This document shows positions 5,506-10,173 of a stretch of DNA of 12,559 nucleotides, piece by piece. The position numbers were made by a program, and so were the translations under genes. Source of the DNA: an uncultured Clostridia bacterium (GTDB taxonomy: Bacteria; Bacillota; Clostridia; Lachnospirales; Lachnospiraceae). The stretch is taken from assembly GCA_947178045.1 (NCBI GenBank), contig CAMWWR010000015.1, forward strand, positions 1 to 12,559, in the 5' to 3' direction. Below the pieces are notes generated by a model. That model made no database searches and was not told the origin of the DNA. It saw nothing but the letters and a program-made list of their open reading frames with translations. How positions within the stretch are numbered: position 1 is the stretch's first letter; each line of letters starts with the position of its first letter.

Positions 5506-5539
5506 TTTAAGGAAACGCTTTCATCAGCGTTTTCTTAAA
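5506..5539 (-). terminator. Hairpin overlapping the stop codon of the DUF5107 gene
   Basis: The arms 5506-5519 and 5526-5539 pair over 14 positions with one G-T, closing a 6-base loop. The stop codon of the DUF5107 gene (5535-5537) lies inside the stem. On the minus strand the stem is followed by GGCATTTTCTTCTTGCTTTT, a T-rich tail that fits termination, though the T-run is not immediate. The sequence is related to the hairpin at 8993-9029. The minus-strand piece TGAAAGCGTTTCC (5523-5511) also resembles a catabolite-response element. Confidence 0.55.
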
Positions 5540-8500
5540 AGAAGATCCTGAAACGTCCCGTGCGGAAGACCGGATGAAGCTCTGCGGCGCGCGCGGCAAA
5601 TTCCTGTGCCTTCGCCGTCTCTCCCAGTCCGAGATTGCCGAGCGCCATCAGATAATAGCAGTGCGCCCGGTTTCGTACCGTGCAGTCCTCGTCAAAGATC
5701 AGGAAATCCGGCAGGGAAACCGCAAAATAATCGATCTTTACCTCGTCGCGCAGATGCTTTTCCCCGTAATCGATCAGGCGGTAGAAGCGGGATTTTGCCC
5801 GGGCCGCCTTTCCGAGCTCCTTCCACGCAAGTCCCTGATAAAGGATCATCTCCGCCGGCTGATCGTTGTAGTACATTGCGCCCGCCGGCTCGTCGGTTCC
5901 CTCCGTGGCGAGCAGGAAGCAGGCGTCAGCCTCCTCCGGCCTCCCCTGGGCCCTGAGGCAGAGTCCAAGCCGGTAATACAGGTGATTGTCCTTCGTTCCC
6001 TCCAGCTTCCCCTCGCCGAGGTTCTCCGGCAGAACGAGCGCTCTTCTCAGCAGCGCCTCCGCATCGGTGTATCCGCCGCTCTGCATTTTCTCCTTTGCCA
6101 GCTCTAAAAGCGCGAGCGTATACTGCTCTGTGATTTTGCCTTCTCCCCCCTCCCACGGATGGAAACGGCGTCCCATAATGCAGCTCAGCGCTTTTTCATA
6201 TTTCCCCGCCGCGTTGAGCAGCGTGATATATTCCACATAGAGATCATCCCGCTTTCCCAAAAGCTCCGGGTATTTCTCATAATTTGCGAGACGCTCCCCG
6301 CAGCTCATCCCGAGCTTTTTGTACAGCTGATCCAGCTCGAGGAAAACTCTGGCGTCCGAGGTGTCCAGCGCAAAGGCGCGCTCCAGCTCGCTCCTTGCCG
6401 CTTCCCCGTCCCCCTTTTTATTGTAGTACGCAATAGCGAGGTTCCGGTGCACCGTCGGGAAATCCGGCTCCGCCTCCGCCGCCATTTCCCACAGGGCGGC
6501 TGCCTCCTGCCACTGCAGCTTATCGTAAAACAGACAGCCAAGATAATACGGCGCGCGCTTCCTGCAGCCGTGTGCAATCGCAAAGCGCAGGACCGCGATG
6601 TCCTCCAGCCTGTTCGGGAAGCAGTAGTCTGCCGGAACACGCTCCGCCTGCTCGAGAAGCTCCTCCCACGGTGTGTGGGCATTTTGAGAATCTGTTTCTG
6701 TGCAGGACCGTGCCGCCTGTGCTTCTGCCGCCCGCTGAACAGCGCGGTAATATGCCTCATAATATTTCAGCAGCGGCTGTTCCTTCGCACAGCTCTGCAG
6801 CAGCCCGCACGCCTCCTCGTACGCGCCGAACTCCGCGTAATCCCGCGCAGCCATAAGGTAATTTTCCGGGAAATCCCGCAGCTTGCCGCGAAGCTCACCG
6901 GCAGCACCGGAGACATGCAGCACCGCCGCCTCGCTGCAGGAGACAAAATCAAACGGGTCAAGCGCGAGACTGGCCTCAATCCACCGAACCGCCTCTTCCT
7001 CCCTGCCCAGCTTCCGCAGCAGATATGCCTTCAATCCCCGCGCCTTCACATTGTGGGTATTCCGCACGAGCGATCTCTCAACGTGCTCCAGCGCCGGCAT
7101 CCATTTCCCCGCCCTCGCGTCAAGCGCGGCCAGGTAGTAATATGATTTTTCCTGCTGCTCGCAGCTCCAGGCTGCCTTGTATAAATTCTCGTATGCCCCG
7201 GCGGTATACTGCTCTGCCAGGTCCGCGTATTCTCCGCTGCACCGTATCTGTGTCTCCTCCGCCCGGTAAAAATAATTCAGCCCCAGCAGATAAAAGGTCT
7301 CGCTGTGGTACGGGTTCGGATTCCGCCATGTCAGGCGCTCCAGCGCCTTCTTCAAATATCCCTCCGCCTGTGCGAACTGCCCCCTGCCAAGCAGCAGCTT
7401 CCCGTACGCATTGTTGATCCGGATATCGCCCGGGTCACGCTTTAAGCCCTCCAGGTAATACGGGTCCGGCAGGAAGGTCGCATGGCGGTACTGCTCCAGA
7501 TGCTGTCCGGTCAGATAAAGCTCCTCATTCGTCATAAGCTCCTCCGGCGCGGCCGCGGCCTGTGCCGGCTCCGGCAGCTTTGGAATGTCCTCCTTCTCTT
7601 CCCTGCAGCTGACAAGAAGCTTTCCGTCCGACCATACCTCAAGCTGCAGCTCCTTTTCCGCCGCCCCCGCAAGCGGAACGCTCTTCTTAAATATTTTCAC
7701 CGGTGAGAGCTTTGTCCTCTCCTCCAGCAGAACTGTTTCTCCCGCCTTAAGCCGCACAAGCGCCTCCGGAAACCTTTGAGACGCATATACGACGACCTGC
7801 GCCTGCCCGTCCCCGCACGAGAACGTAACCACGGCTTCCTTTGTCGCGTTTTTTACCTGTCCTACCGCCTTGTACGGCATAAAATACTGGCGGAACACCT
7901 TTTCCTCAAACGGCTTCAGCCAGGTGAAATCCGGCTGGTTATCCGTATAGACGCCCGTCATCAGCTCAATGTACGGCCCGTCCTCATCCGTCAGATTCCG
8001 ATCCCATGCTCTGCCGAAATCGCCGCAGCCCCAGGTCCACTGCTTTTTTCCCGGCGAGACATGATGATCCGCCACATGCAGAAGTCCCGCCTCCCTGCCG
8101 TAATCATAGCCGCCGACGAAATCATAGCGGGATTTCTCCGCCATGTAGGAGGTCGGCACCGGAATATTTTTGTAACGCGAAATATCGACGCCCTCACTGT
8201 AATCCTTCTTGTAATATACGCCGGTCGCGATCGGGAAGCGGGAAACATCGCGCTTTCCGTGATCCATCACCGCATGCACATCCGGCGGAAAGATGGACTG
8301 CGTCTGATCGTTGACCGCGACGGCAGGATTCGCCCACCACAGAAAGGTCTGCGGCAGCGGCGTCCGGTTGTAGAGCTGCCCCGTGATCTCGATATACGCC
8401 TTCCCCGGATACAGCGCGATTCTGGTGACCGCCTTCGTCCCGTACATCCGGTCCACATCGCCTAACAGCACCGCCGCGGCTCCGTCCTCCGTCTGCTCCG

Positions 8501-8903
8501 TCACATAATCCACCGGCAGGAAGGTCGTCGGCCGATGATGCTGCGGCCAGTTGAATTCGATTCCCCCGGAGATCCACGGGCCGGTCAGCCCCACCAGCGC
8601 CGGCTTGATCACATGATTGTAATAGACAAAATCGTAGCCGTTCGTCTTGTCGTACGCTCTCTGTATCCGTCCGCCCAGCTGCGGCAGGACCATCACCTTC
8701 AGATACTCGTTCTCCAGCATCACCGCCTCGTACTCCTGATCTACCTTCTCATCGCTGATGCTCTCGATCGTCGGATACGGATAGACCCTGCCGCTGCTCC
8801 CCTGATAAACGCGCTTTTCAAGGAACATCGGATTTTTCTCCGCCCTTCCGATCTCATACGTCGGTATCGTGACCTTCTCCGCCCACACTCTTGCTTTCTC
8901 CAT
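5535..8903 (-). CDS. DUF5107 domain protein with TPR repeats
   Basis: This 1122-residue protein has no signal peptide and is probably cytoplasmic. Residues about 40-350 are the DUF5107 domain, a beta-rich region resembling aldose-1-epimerase-like sandwich folds. It holds the conserved stretches VLPQLGGRIQRAYDKTNGY, ISGGIEFNWPQHHRP and GPYIELMTGVYTDNQPDF. A second beta-rich part follows at about 355-435, then a Pro/Ala linker near 440-455. From about 485 to the end there are helical tetratricopeptide repeats (such as NNAYGKLLLGRGQFAQAEGYLKKAL). The start is supported by GGGAGG 6 bases upstream and by the conserved opening. The family is common in Clostridia and Actinobacteria near sugar-use genes, but no reaction is established to my knowledge. 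Conserved acidic and His residues (E116, H122, H123, E313) would be the first candidates for a sugar site. Transcription diverges from the AraC-type gene. Confidence 0.92.
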   Translation of the reverse strand: MEKARVWAEKVTIPTYEIGRAEKNPMFLEKRVYQGSSGRVYPYPTIESISDEKVDQEYEAVMLENEYLKVMVLPQLGGRIQRAYDKTNGYDFVYYNHVIKPALVGLTGPWISGGIEFNWPQHHRPTTFLPVDYVTEQTEDGAAAVLLGDVDRMYGTKAVTRIALYPGKAYIEITGQLYNRTPLPQTFLWWANPAVAVNDQTQSIFPPDVHAVMDHGKRDVSRFPIATGVYYKKDYSEGVDISRYKNIPVPTSYMAEKSRYDFVGGYDYGREAGLLHVADHHVSPGKKQWTWGCGDFGRAWDRNLTDEDGPYIELMTGVYTDNQPDFTWLKPFEEKVFRQYFMPYKAVGQVKNATKEAVVTFSCGDGQAQVVVYASQRFPEALVRLKAGETVLLEERTKLSPVKIFKKSVPLAGAAEKELQLEVWSDGKLLVSCREEKEDIPKLPEPAQAAAAPEELMTNEELYLTGQHLEQYRHATFLPDPYYLEGLKRDPGDIRINNAYGKLLLGRGQFAQAEGYLKKALERLTWRNPNPYHSETFYLLGLNYFYRAEETQIRCSGEYADLAEQYTAGAYENLYKAAWSCEQQEKSYYYLAALDARAGKWMPALEHVERSLVRNTHNVKARGLKAYLLRKLGREEEAVRWIEASLALDPFDFVSCSEAAVLHVSGAAGELRGKLRDFPENYLMAARDYAEFGAYEEACGLLQSCAKEQPLLKYYEAYYRAVQRAAEAQAARSCTETDSQNAHTPWEELLEQAERVPADYCFPNRLEDIAVLRFAIAHGCRKRAPYYLGCLFYDKLQWQEAAALWEMAAEAEPDFPTVHRNLAIAYYNKKGDGEAARSELERAFALDTSDARVFLELDQLYKKLGMSCGERLANYEKYPELLGKRDDLYVEYITLLNAAGKYEKALSCIMGRRFHPWEGGEGKITEQYTLALLELAKEKMQSGGYTDAEALLRRALVLPENLGEGKLEGTKDNHLYYRLGLCLRAQGRPEEADACFLLATEGTDEPAGAMYYNDQPAEMILYQGLAWKELGKAARAKSRFYRLIDYGEKHLRDEVKIDYFAVSLPDFLIFDEDCTVRNRAHCYYLMALGNLGLGETAKAQEFAARAAELHPVFRTGRFRIFF

Positions 8904-8992
8904 GGCTGCCTCCCGAATAAAATTTTGTTTTTAATTCTTTTTTTGAGCCTGCGTTTTCGTTTTACATTGGATTCAAGTTTCAAATTCCGGAT

Positions 8993-9029
8993 TCTAAGGA
9001 AGCGCTGCTTTAATCAGCGTTTCCCTAGA
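8993..9029. repeat. Hairpin repeat in the leader of the DUF5107 gene
   Basis: Arms 8993-9007 and 9015-9029 pair over 15 positions with one mismatch and one G-T, closing the 7-base loop CTTTAAT. It lies about 90 bases upstream of the DUF5107 start, downstream of the predicted promoter, so it would be in the 5' leader RNA. It matches the hairpin at 5506-5539 in the core GGAARCGCT...ATCAGCGTTT and points the same way. A T-tract does not follow on the minus strand. Confidence 0.6.
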
Positions 9030-9047
9030 TTTATATTTTATGCTGCC

Positions 9048-9076
9048 ATCATACTCTATTTTTAAGCTGATTTCAT
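9048..9076 (-). promoter_or_regulatory. Candidate promoter of the DUF5107 gene
   Basis: On the minus strand, ATGAAA (9076-9071), a 17-base spacer and TATGAT (9053-9048) form a moderate sigma-A promoter. RNA would begin near 9041, giving a leader of about 140 nt that includes the hairpin at 8993-9029. Several other A/T-rich boxes nearby (for example a TAAAAT just downstream) are alternatives. Confidence 0.35.
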
Positions 9077-9112
9077 TATGATTCTCTGCTGTTCTGTTTA
9101 TATTTTTTGCGG

Positions 9113-9141
9113 TTGATATTTTTTGAGAGATCCGGTATGAT
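9113..9141 (+). promoter_or_regulatory. Promoter of the AraC-type regulator gene
   Basis: TTGATA (9113-9118), a 17-base spacer and TATGAT (9136-9141) form a near-consensus sigma-A promoter. RNA should begin near 9148, which puts the whole 26-bp repeat array (9187-9337) in a transcribed leader of about 186 nt. It lies about 40 bases from the candidate promoter of the divergent DUF5107 gene, so one regulator could affect both. Confidence 0.6.
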
Positions 9142-9186
9142 GGGGTTGAGCGGCAGTGGAAGTCCCGGATAAAAAGCAAAAAGGGC

Positions 9187-9337
9187 AATGAGGAAAAATC
9201 GCATGAAATGAGCAAAGGAAAAAATCGTATGAAATAAGCAAGGGAAAAAATCGTATGGAATGAGCAAAGGAAAAAATCGCATGAAATGAGCAAAAAACAA
9301 AATTCATGAAATGGGGGCAGGGAGAAAAATCAGATGA
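9187..9337 (+). repeat. 26-bp tandem repeat of ribosome-site/ATG/stop modules
   Basis: Six units lie head to tail. Three central units are exactly 26 bp (9207-9232, 9233-9258, 9259-9284); the first is shortened (20 bp), and the last two are 25 and 28 bp and more diverged. Each typical unit reads GAGCAAAGG, an A-rich spacer with ATCGT or ATCGC, then ATGAAAT. An AGG- or AAGGG-like Shine-Dalgarno thus stands 9-10 bases before an ATG in units 1-4 and again before the true araC start, which is part of unit 6. The ATGs are at 9203, 9229, 9255, 9281, 9306 and 9334. There are no unique spacers, so this is not a CRISPR array. It probably arose by slippage or unequal exchange of the gene's own start module. 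Confidence 0.9.
9203..9289 (+). other. Four tandem two-codon minimal ORFs
   Basis: Each ATG in units 1-4 is followed at once by one sense codon and a stop: ATG-AAA-TGA (9203-9211), ATG-AAA-TAA (9229-9237), ATG-GAA-TGA (9255-9263) and ATG-AAA-TGA (9281-9289). In each unit the stop abuts or overlaps the next Shine-Dalgarno-like stretch. Two-codon minigenes are known in other bacteria to cause peptidyl-tRNA drop-off and to compete for ribosomes. Here such a role in control of the downstream regulator is inference. Confidence 0.55.
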
Positions 9338-9347
9338 AATCCTGTGA
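9306..9347 (+). CDS. Possible 13-codon upstream ORF overlapping the regulator start
   Basis: In repeat unit 5 the stop of the minimal ORF is lost, so the ATG at 9306 opens a 13-codon frame (MKWGQGEKSDEIL). It covers the Shine-Dalgarno of the regulator gene and ends 12 bases inside it, in a different frame. Its own ribosome site is poor (A-rich, no GG), so translation may be low. If it is translated, ribosomes would cross and cover the regulator's start site. Confidence 0.3.
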   Translation: MKWGQGEKSDEIL

Positions 9348-10173
9348 AAAATATATTGACAAGCATTCCGATTATTATGTTTATACGCCGAGCGTCACCG
9401 CCAGGCAGCTTTTTTTCTATCCGCTGCAGTGTGGTCATTTTATCTACGAGGCTGGCTATTCCCTGAGCCGCGAGGCCTTCGACAGCTTCTTGCTCCTGTA
9501 CGCGGAGCATGGCTGTATGGCGGTAACAACCGAAGCATACACCTGCGAGGTATCGGCGGGACAATTCCTGTTTCTGGACTGCTACCGGCCTCATGCCTAC
9601 CGCTCCTCTTCGGGCTGCGAATGCCTCTGGCTTCATTTTGACGGAAGCCTGGCGCGCGGCTTTTATGAGGCGGTCGCCGCGCACTCCGGCATCGTAATTT
9701 CCCCGAAAAATCCGTATCCTGCCCGCGAAAAGCTGCGGGCGGTCTACGATCTGTTCCAAAACAGGGCTCCCATAAGAGAGCCCCTTGTTTCCAAATATAT
9801 TAACGACCTTCTGACGTTTTTTCTTCTGAATCAGCCGCAAAAGAGCGGGAGCCTCCCCCAGGCAAGCATTTCCGAGGAGGCTGCCGCCTTTATCCGCGAA
9901 CATTTCGCGGAGGATATTCCGGTCGAGGCGCTCGCAAAGCGCGCGGGACTGAGTCCGTATCACTTTATCCGCGTATTCAAGCGCGAAACCGGCTTCACAC
10001 CCCACCAGTATCTTGTGGACACTCGAATTGCCGCCGCAAAATACCTTTTAAAAAACTCTCCGCTCTCCGCCAAAAGTATCTGCTTCCAGACGGGATTTTC
10101 CTGCGAGAGCGTTTTCTGCAGCGCATTCAAAAAGCACGAGGGCGTCACACCGGCCGAATACCGCAGCACCTGA
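9334..10173 (+). CDS. AraC/XylS-family transcriptional regulator
   Basis: This 279-residue one-component regulator has an N-terminal cupin-like sensing half (about 20-110, with VSAGQFLFLDCYRPHAYRSS typical of the arabinose-binding fold) and a C-terminal DNA-binding half (about 180-279). The latter holds two helix-turn-helix units: VEALAKRAGLSPYHFIRVFK, and SICFQTGFSCESVFCSAFKK followed by GVTPAEYR. The ligand is unknown; the neighbours suggest a sugar or oligosaccharide. The start is supported by AGGGAG 9 bases upstream (9319-9324). The same ribosome-site/ATG module is repeated upstream. It is divergent from the DUF5107 gene and convergent with the GH2 gene, 54 bp away, with no clear terminator in that gap. 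Control of these neighbours is plausible from position but not shown. Confidence 0.95.
   Translation: MKSCEKYIDKHSDYYVYTPSVTARQLFFYPLQCGHFIYEAGYSLSREAFDSFLLLYAEHGCMAVTTEAYTCEVSAGQFLFLDCYRPHAYRSSSGCECLWLHFDGSLARGFYEAVAAHSGIVISPKNPYPAREKLRAVYDLFQNRAPIREPLVSKYINDLLTFFLLNQPQKSGSLPQASISEEAAAFIREHFAEDIPVEALAKRAGLSPYHFIRVFKRETGFTPHQYLVDTRIAAAKYLLKNSPLSAKSICFQTGFSCESVFCSAFKKHEGVTPAEYRST

Follow-up and report, generated by a model that had tools for sequence, protein, structure and literature searches.

Upstream of an AraC-type regulator gene in an uncultured Clostridia bacterium lies a tandem array of 26-bp units (positions 9194 to 9313, + strand) that is a real, lineage-specific minisatellite, in which four two-codon frames have come about through the copying of a start site; regulation by these frames is possible and is not indicated. 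Positions refer throughout to the 12,559-nucleotide stretch of DNA that was analysed (the window), which belongs to contig C15 of an assembly of 2.32 Mb in 431 contigs that is 69% complete and has Lachnospiraceae, including Eisenbergiella, as its nearest named kin. We place at roughly three in four the probability of the fuller reading, namely that the minisatellite occupies the 5' leader of the regulator gene, arose from the start region of the regulator itself, and modulates translation mildly at most.

Anatomy of the array

TRF describes the array as 4.7 copies of a 26-bp period with 86% matches and a score of 170, the highest of the nine TRF rows in the window, and hence as head-to-tail units within the range of about 10–100 bp and with the high mutual identity expected of a minisatellite. 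Bacterial minisatellites, or VNTR loci, are lineage-specific arrays of near-identical units, each tens of bp long, in head-to-tail order. The ATG codons lie at 9203, 9229, 9255, 9281, 9306, and 9334, and both their spacings (26, 26, 26, 25, and 28) and the single codon plus stop that follow each of the first four are just as the initial annotation had given them. Minigenes 1, 2, and 4 encode Met-Lys (ATG AAA TGA, 9203–9211; ATG AAA TAA, 9229–9237; and ATG AAA TGA, 9281–9289) and minigene 3 encodes Met-Glu (ATG GAA TGA, 9255–9263), all on the + strand, with Shine-Dalgarno energies of –5.6, –5.8, –5.8, and –5.5 kcal/mol, respectively. The description of six units that each carry a Shine-Dalgarno stretch, a spacer, and an ATG stands for units 1 to 4 and for unit 6. 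It does not stand for unit 5, which has lost its near stop together with its Shine-Dalgarno (only –1.9 kcal/mol) and opens a 13-codon frame (MKWGQGEKSDEIL, 9306–9347, + strand) that runs out of frame into the regulator. At the other end, a partial leading unit (9188–9211, + strand) has a weak Shine-Dalgarno (–3.0 kcal/mol) and an ATG that opens MRKNRMK in the reading frame of minigene 1.

There is also a second layer of short frames on the + strand, which with its ATGA overlaps was missing from the initial annotation. In units 1, 3, 4, and 5 a second ATG five bases in (9208, 9260, 9286, and 9311) opens a frame of 7–9 codons. These frames are MSKGKNRMK (9208–9237), whose start overlaps the stop of minigene 1 as ATGA; MSKGKNRMK once more (9260–9289), overlapping the stop of minigene 3 in the same manner; MSKKQNS (9286–9309), whose start overlaps the stop of minigene 4 and whose own stop overlaps the unit 5 ATG; and MGAGRKIR (9311–9337), which has no Shine-Dalgarno (+2.0 kcal/mol) and whose TGA overlaps the regulator ATG. 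Stop-start overlaps of the ATGA type occur at 9208, 9260, 9286, 9306, and 9334, the last being the regulator's own ATG.

The number of two-codon frames exceeds what base composition gives: four ATG-N3-stop motifs occur in 9141–9333, compared with a mean of 0.33 and a maximum of 3 in 2000 dinucleotide-preserving shuffles, none of which reached four (0/2000), and the + strand of the whole window holds only two others, at 2662 and 2959. Since the four minigenes are copies of one another, they represent one event rather than four independent ones. Units 2–4 are mutually identical at 23–24 of 26 positions, and near-identical tandem units are a type of sequence prone to copy-number change. This would suit a copy-number (VNTR) rheostat, in which slippage alters the count of ribosome-catching, ATGA-coupled units and thereby shifts the level of the regulator heritably while its coding sequence stays untouched; the one genome covered for the species, however, shows no second allele, the divergence of units 1 and 5 means that the array is not brand-new, and we consider such a rheostat distinctly improbable.

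Setting of the array and its regulator

The regulator (9334–10173, + strand, 279 aa) matches AraC_binding (PF02311, 1.2e-07) and HTH_18 (PF12833, 4.4e-23), and alignments with the proteins of its relatives begin at residue 1 or 2, in agreement with the original assignment of unit 6 as the real start of the gene, at 9334. A divergently oriented gene for a DUF5107 and TPR protein (5535–8903, – strand; PF17128, 2.2e-62) is, from its divergent position, a possible target of the regulator. Beyond it are an epimerase/dehydratase-family gene and a GH94 gene, and on the opposite side of the array and regulator is a protein with a weak GH2 match, so that the gene neighbourhood looks like a sugar-use locus.

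A sigma-70-type promoter-like site, TTGATA-17-TATGAT (9113–9141, + strand), agrees with the consensus at 10 of 12 positions; three promoter-like sites were counted on both strands of 8850–9400, compared with 1.2 in shuffles. The closest relative, L013, has TTGAAA-17-TATGAT, with spacing and –10 identical to those of the site in the window. The array is thus placed between this promoter-like site and the regulator and, if the consensus match marks a true promoter, would fall inside the transcribed leader.

Just upstream of the –35 is a stretch, TTTATATTTTTTGC (9097–9110), with a similar counterpart, judged by eye, in six of the nine orthologous leaders described below (L012–L017); a TTTATATTTTTTGC-like stretch also occurs elsewhere in the congener G003 (L057). 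It is a candidate operator of the AraC-type regulator, and a better candidate than the 26-bp unit. AraC-type proteins often bind direct repeats, and a period of 26 bp, about 2.5 helical turns, could be taken to mean that the array is itself an iteron-like operator bound by the regulator. The unit is, however, absent from the relatives, whereas the promoter-adjacent stretch is found in most of them, and it lies downstream of the promoter-like site, all of which makes an iteron-like role very unlikely indeed.

A different repeat is found on the far side of the promoter-like site, where an imperfect palindrome, CTAAGGAAGCGCTG..CAGCGTTTCCCTAG (8994–9028), belongs to a dispersed set. The stretch 8904–9345 has 71 matches in its own genome and, among the matches listed, the non-self ones coincide with this palindrome or its borders, in many cases on both strands of a single site, with more in the congener G001. 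The stretch 8987–9033 folds at –19.5 kcal/mol (z –4.6), and these properties suggest a REP-like or terminator-like repeat family.

Probable origin from the regulator's own start

The proposal that the regulator's own ribosome-binding and start module was serially duplicated is borne out, as units 1, 2, and 4 share AAAAATC-N2-ATGAAAT with the start of the regulator (AAAAATCAGATGAAATCC). By eye, the regulator start reads ATGAAATC in four of nine relatives (L014–L017), and TTG/GTG-AAATC is present at this place in three more (L012, L013, and L018). The leader distances point the same way. From the –10 to the first ATG of the array there are 61 nt and to the regulator ATG 192 nt, compared with 66 nt from the –10 to the regulator start in L013 and 25–122 nt over L013–L019 (best consensus hits), and the array therefore looks like the expansion of an otherwise normal leader by way of a copied start region.

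We propose that a stretch of about 26 bp, comprising the Shine-Dalgarno of the regulator itself, its spacer, and ATGAAAT, was duplicated in tandem and that the product was then duplicated again, probably by slippage or misaligned recombination. A unit length of 26 does not divide by 3, so successive copied ATGs fall in different frames, and a stop would be created where ATGAAAT joins the GAG of the following unit (ATGAAAT+GA). The two-codon frames would thus be by-products of copying and not designed parts.

Orthologous leaders and the question of selection

The initial annotation had also proposed that the array serves a function, such as ribosome titration or Lys-tRNA sensing, and had named beforehand, as the observation that would speak against this, orthologous leaders that lack the repeat. 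This is what the comparison gave. Nine orthologous leaders were compared (L013–L019, L012, and L047; 44–68% protein identity of the regulator), with L010 and L011 being identical to the loci L013 and L014, and with L020–L026 left out as non-orthologues that have partial C-terminal matches of 32–45% identity. The array, or any repeated start, is present in none of the nine, and the 190 nt upstream of the regulator contain no ATG-N3-stop in any of them; their best 26-mer self-matches are 11–14 of 26 positions, compared with 18 of 26 here. The lineage restriction is that of a minisatellite, while retention among the relatives of the regulated gene, which would support a role as leader minigenes, is seen in 0/9 leaders. 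Two of the five other genomes of the genus gave no regulator match at E 1e-40. At 44–68% identity, the relatives would speak only against an old age of the array and not against a present use.

The few differences between units carry no signal of selection. All four minigenes retain the ATG, the stop, and the Shine-Dalgarno, the sole change in a stop being TGA to TAA, and the initial annotation had taken this kept layout as a possible sign of selection. Units 2–4 differ from their consensus by four distinct changes (counted manually, with units 1 and 5 excluded), and four random substitutions would leave all of the minigene ATGs and stops intact with P 0.37. At such low divergence the retention of ATGs and stops can be explained without selection and is uninformative either way, so selection on the layout is unsupported. 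The decay of unit 5 is what relaxed constraint would give, and the loss of its Shine-Dalgarno could also have been favoured, as a ribosome at that position would get in the way of the regulator's site.

Strength of the start sites and folding of the leader

Four two-codon frames with Shine-Dalgarno stretches lie in a leader whose transcription is predicted from the promoter consensus match, which is the arrangement of leader minigenes. Their duplex energies with the 16S tail (–5.5 to –5.8 kcal/mol) are those of modest start sites, with Shine-Dalgarnos weaker than that of the regulator (–8.0 kcal/mol); those of seven of the nine relatives' regulators (L013–L019) range from –8.8 to –11.0 kcal/mol. 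Of the 333 window ATGs that were scored, 28% have a Shine-Dalgarno at least as strong as –5 kcal/mol. The ribosome footprint is 34–38 nt, as quoted in PMC8708949, and exceeds the 26-nt spacing, so that occupancy of adjacent units should be mutually exclusive. Unit 4 sits 53 nt before the regulator, far enough for the regulator start not to be blocked. Ribosomes, if they start at the minigenes, would do so at a low to moderate rate and would end after two to nine codons, and initiation at the regulator would thereby be modestly reduced or reshaped, making the array a mild attenuator. Such a mild effect on regulator translation is plausible.

The leader with the first codons of the regulator (9147–9400) folds worse than its shuffles (z +2.25), 198 of 200 of which fold at least as well. 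A structured RNA, such as a riboswitch or an attenuator hairpin, is hence not indicated, and only a tRNA was found by Rfam at the gathering threshold in the whole window.

These properties can also be read as those of a selected, cis-acting translational control, in which ribosome loading on the minigenes protects the mRNA or hands ribosomes over to the regulator start, as in ler and axe-txe. Two-codon leader minigenes act in this way in other bacteria, according to the account in PMC8708949, and the four Shine-Dalgarno-bearing frames, the little-folded leader, and the ATGA overlaps, which suit reinitiation, are all compatible with it. However, Shine-Dalgarnos of this strength are commonplace before ATGs in the window, the unit that adjoins the regulator has lost its own, the array is missing from all nine relatives, and no signal of selection emerges from the unit differences. 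We therefore regard selected control as unlikely, and we favour the minisatellite with a mild effect at most.

Further copies and the background of tandem repeats

There is no second copy of the array in its own genome, where the next best match is 17 bp. A dispersed repeat family was considered and rejected, given this lack of a second copy, the lack of any match to the array in plasmid records, and 0 matches to the exact core of the unit in viral contigs. A DNA search of 397 genomes of the family gave weak single matches of 28–68 bp (E 1.8e-4 to 9.9e-4) in 7 of the 396 others; inspection by eye of about 200 bases around each of the seven revealed no array of a similar kind, and the matches in L053 and L055 look by eye like the single ribosome-binding site of one gene. 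In view of such matches the unit looks like any ordinary ribosome-binding site. Recurrence of Met-Lys-stop pairs was set aside as a measure: the pattern ATGAAATRA-N8..30-ATGAAATRA occurs in 96 of the 397 genomes, including its own, and is too loose, given that its reversed control also matches. Among the matches listed, one family genome has short tandem ATGAAATAAG-like units about 13 bp apart with overlapping Met-Lys-stop matches (G369:C2:3840-3913, – strand).

The background of tandem repeats was sampled by TRF in 447,188 bases (the window and 40 stretches, about 19% of the genome) with ORFs called mechanically. This sample has 56 merged arrays, of which 17 lie outside ORFs, and five of these 17, including the leader array, have 2.4 or more copies. 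The corresponding numbers for 400,000 bases of the congener G004 are 25 arrays, seven extragenic, and four with 2.4 or more copies, so the genome under study has about twice as many arrays per base and not clearly more extragenic multi-copy arrays. Several arrays lie near gene ends: a 19-bp unit (L080 617-685; 3.6 copies, 94%) repeats the end and stop codon of a putative ORF, a 52-bp unit (L068 277-395; 2.3 copies, 97%) ends at the ribosome-binding site of the next putative ORF, and a 22-bp unit (L076 5511-5564) lies just upstream of the RBS of a putative ORF. A duplicated Shine-Dalgarno-like region (L066 3834-3883) was rejected as a second case because it lies within a coding frame or at its border. 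ATG-N3-stop motifs are absent from the other 16 extragenic arrays of the sample, and of the seven in G004 one contains a single such motif. Arrays copied in tandem close to gene ends are thus nothing special in this genome, and the minigene layout is unusual even there. Together with the nine leaders that lack the repeat, such arrays elsewhere leave the proposed function in ribosome titration or Lys-tRNA sensing without support.

Relation to known systems

The closest parallels are leader minigenes described by Kedzierska and Potrykus (2021; PMC8708949). In axe-txe, mg2 is a two-codon ATG-N3-stop that has a Shine-Dalgarno to itself and precedes the regulated gene within a leader, as here, but there are one or two minigenes whose effect is shown by mutation, while here a tandem array of the gene's own start is known from sequence. 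According to that account, deletion of the whole minigene stretch of axe-txe raised txe translation by 30%, and inactivation of the minigenes lowered it more than 8-fold (PMC8708949); with such opposite outcomes, the sign and size of any effect here are unpredictable. The LEE1 ler leader of enterohaemorrhagic E. coli also has a two-codon minigene before a transcription-factor gene, but it is a single, experimentally tested one, and its description in PMC8708949 mentions no tandem repeat. In the Gram-positive B. subtilis, two dipeptide mini-ORFs before ycbK are reported to interfere with translation; unlike the minigenes here, both share a single Shine-Dalgarno with the gene, and the mini-ORFs are located 5 and 10 nt ahead of it (described in PMC8708949). 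The TAACTGA repeats of Beggiatoaceae, as presented in PMC4679880, are likewise direct repeats just upstream of start codons with a proposed translational role, but the unit is 7 bp, there are 169 sets in one genome, and the start codon is not part of the unit.

The array differs from other minisatellites and VNTR loci in that its unit contains a Shine-Dalgarno and a start codon, so that copies create minigenes. Among the titles and abstract openings of the matches listed, a scope that covers few subscription journals, we recognised no report of tandem two-codon minigene arrays that arose by duplication of a start site.

The array is a caution that a regular layout alone does not mean function. 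Nevertheless, two-codon minigenes can arise in a single step when a ribosome-binding site is copied in tandem, and this is a plausible route for the birth of regulatory leader minigenes. If the copies are translated and vary in number, the array would provide a natural dose series for the effects of minigenes.
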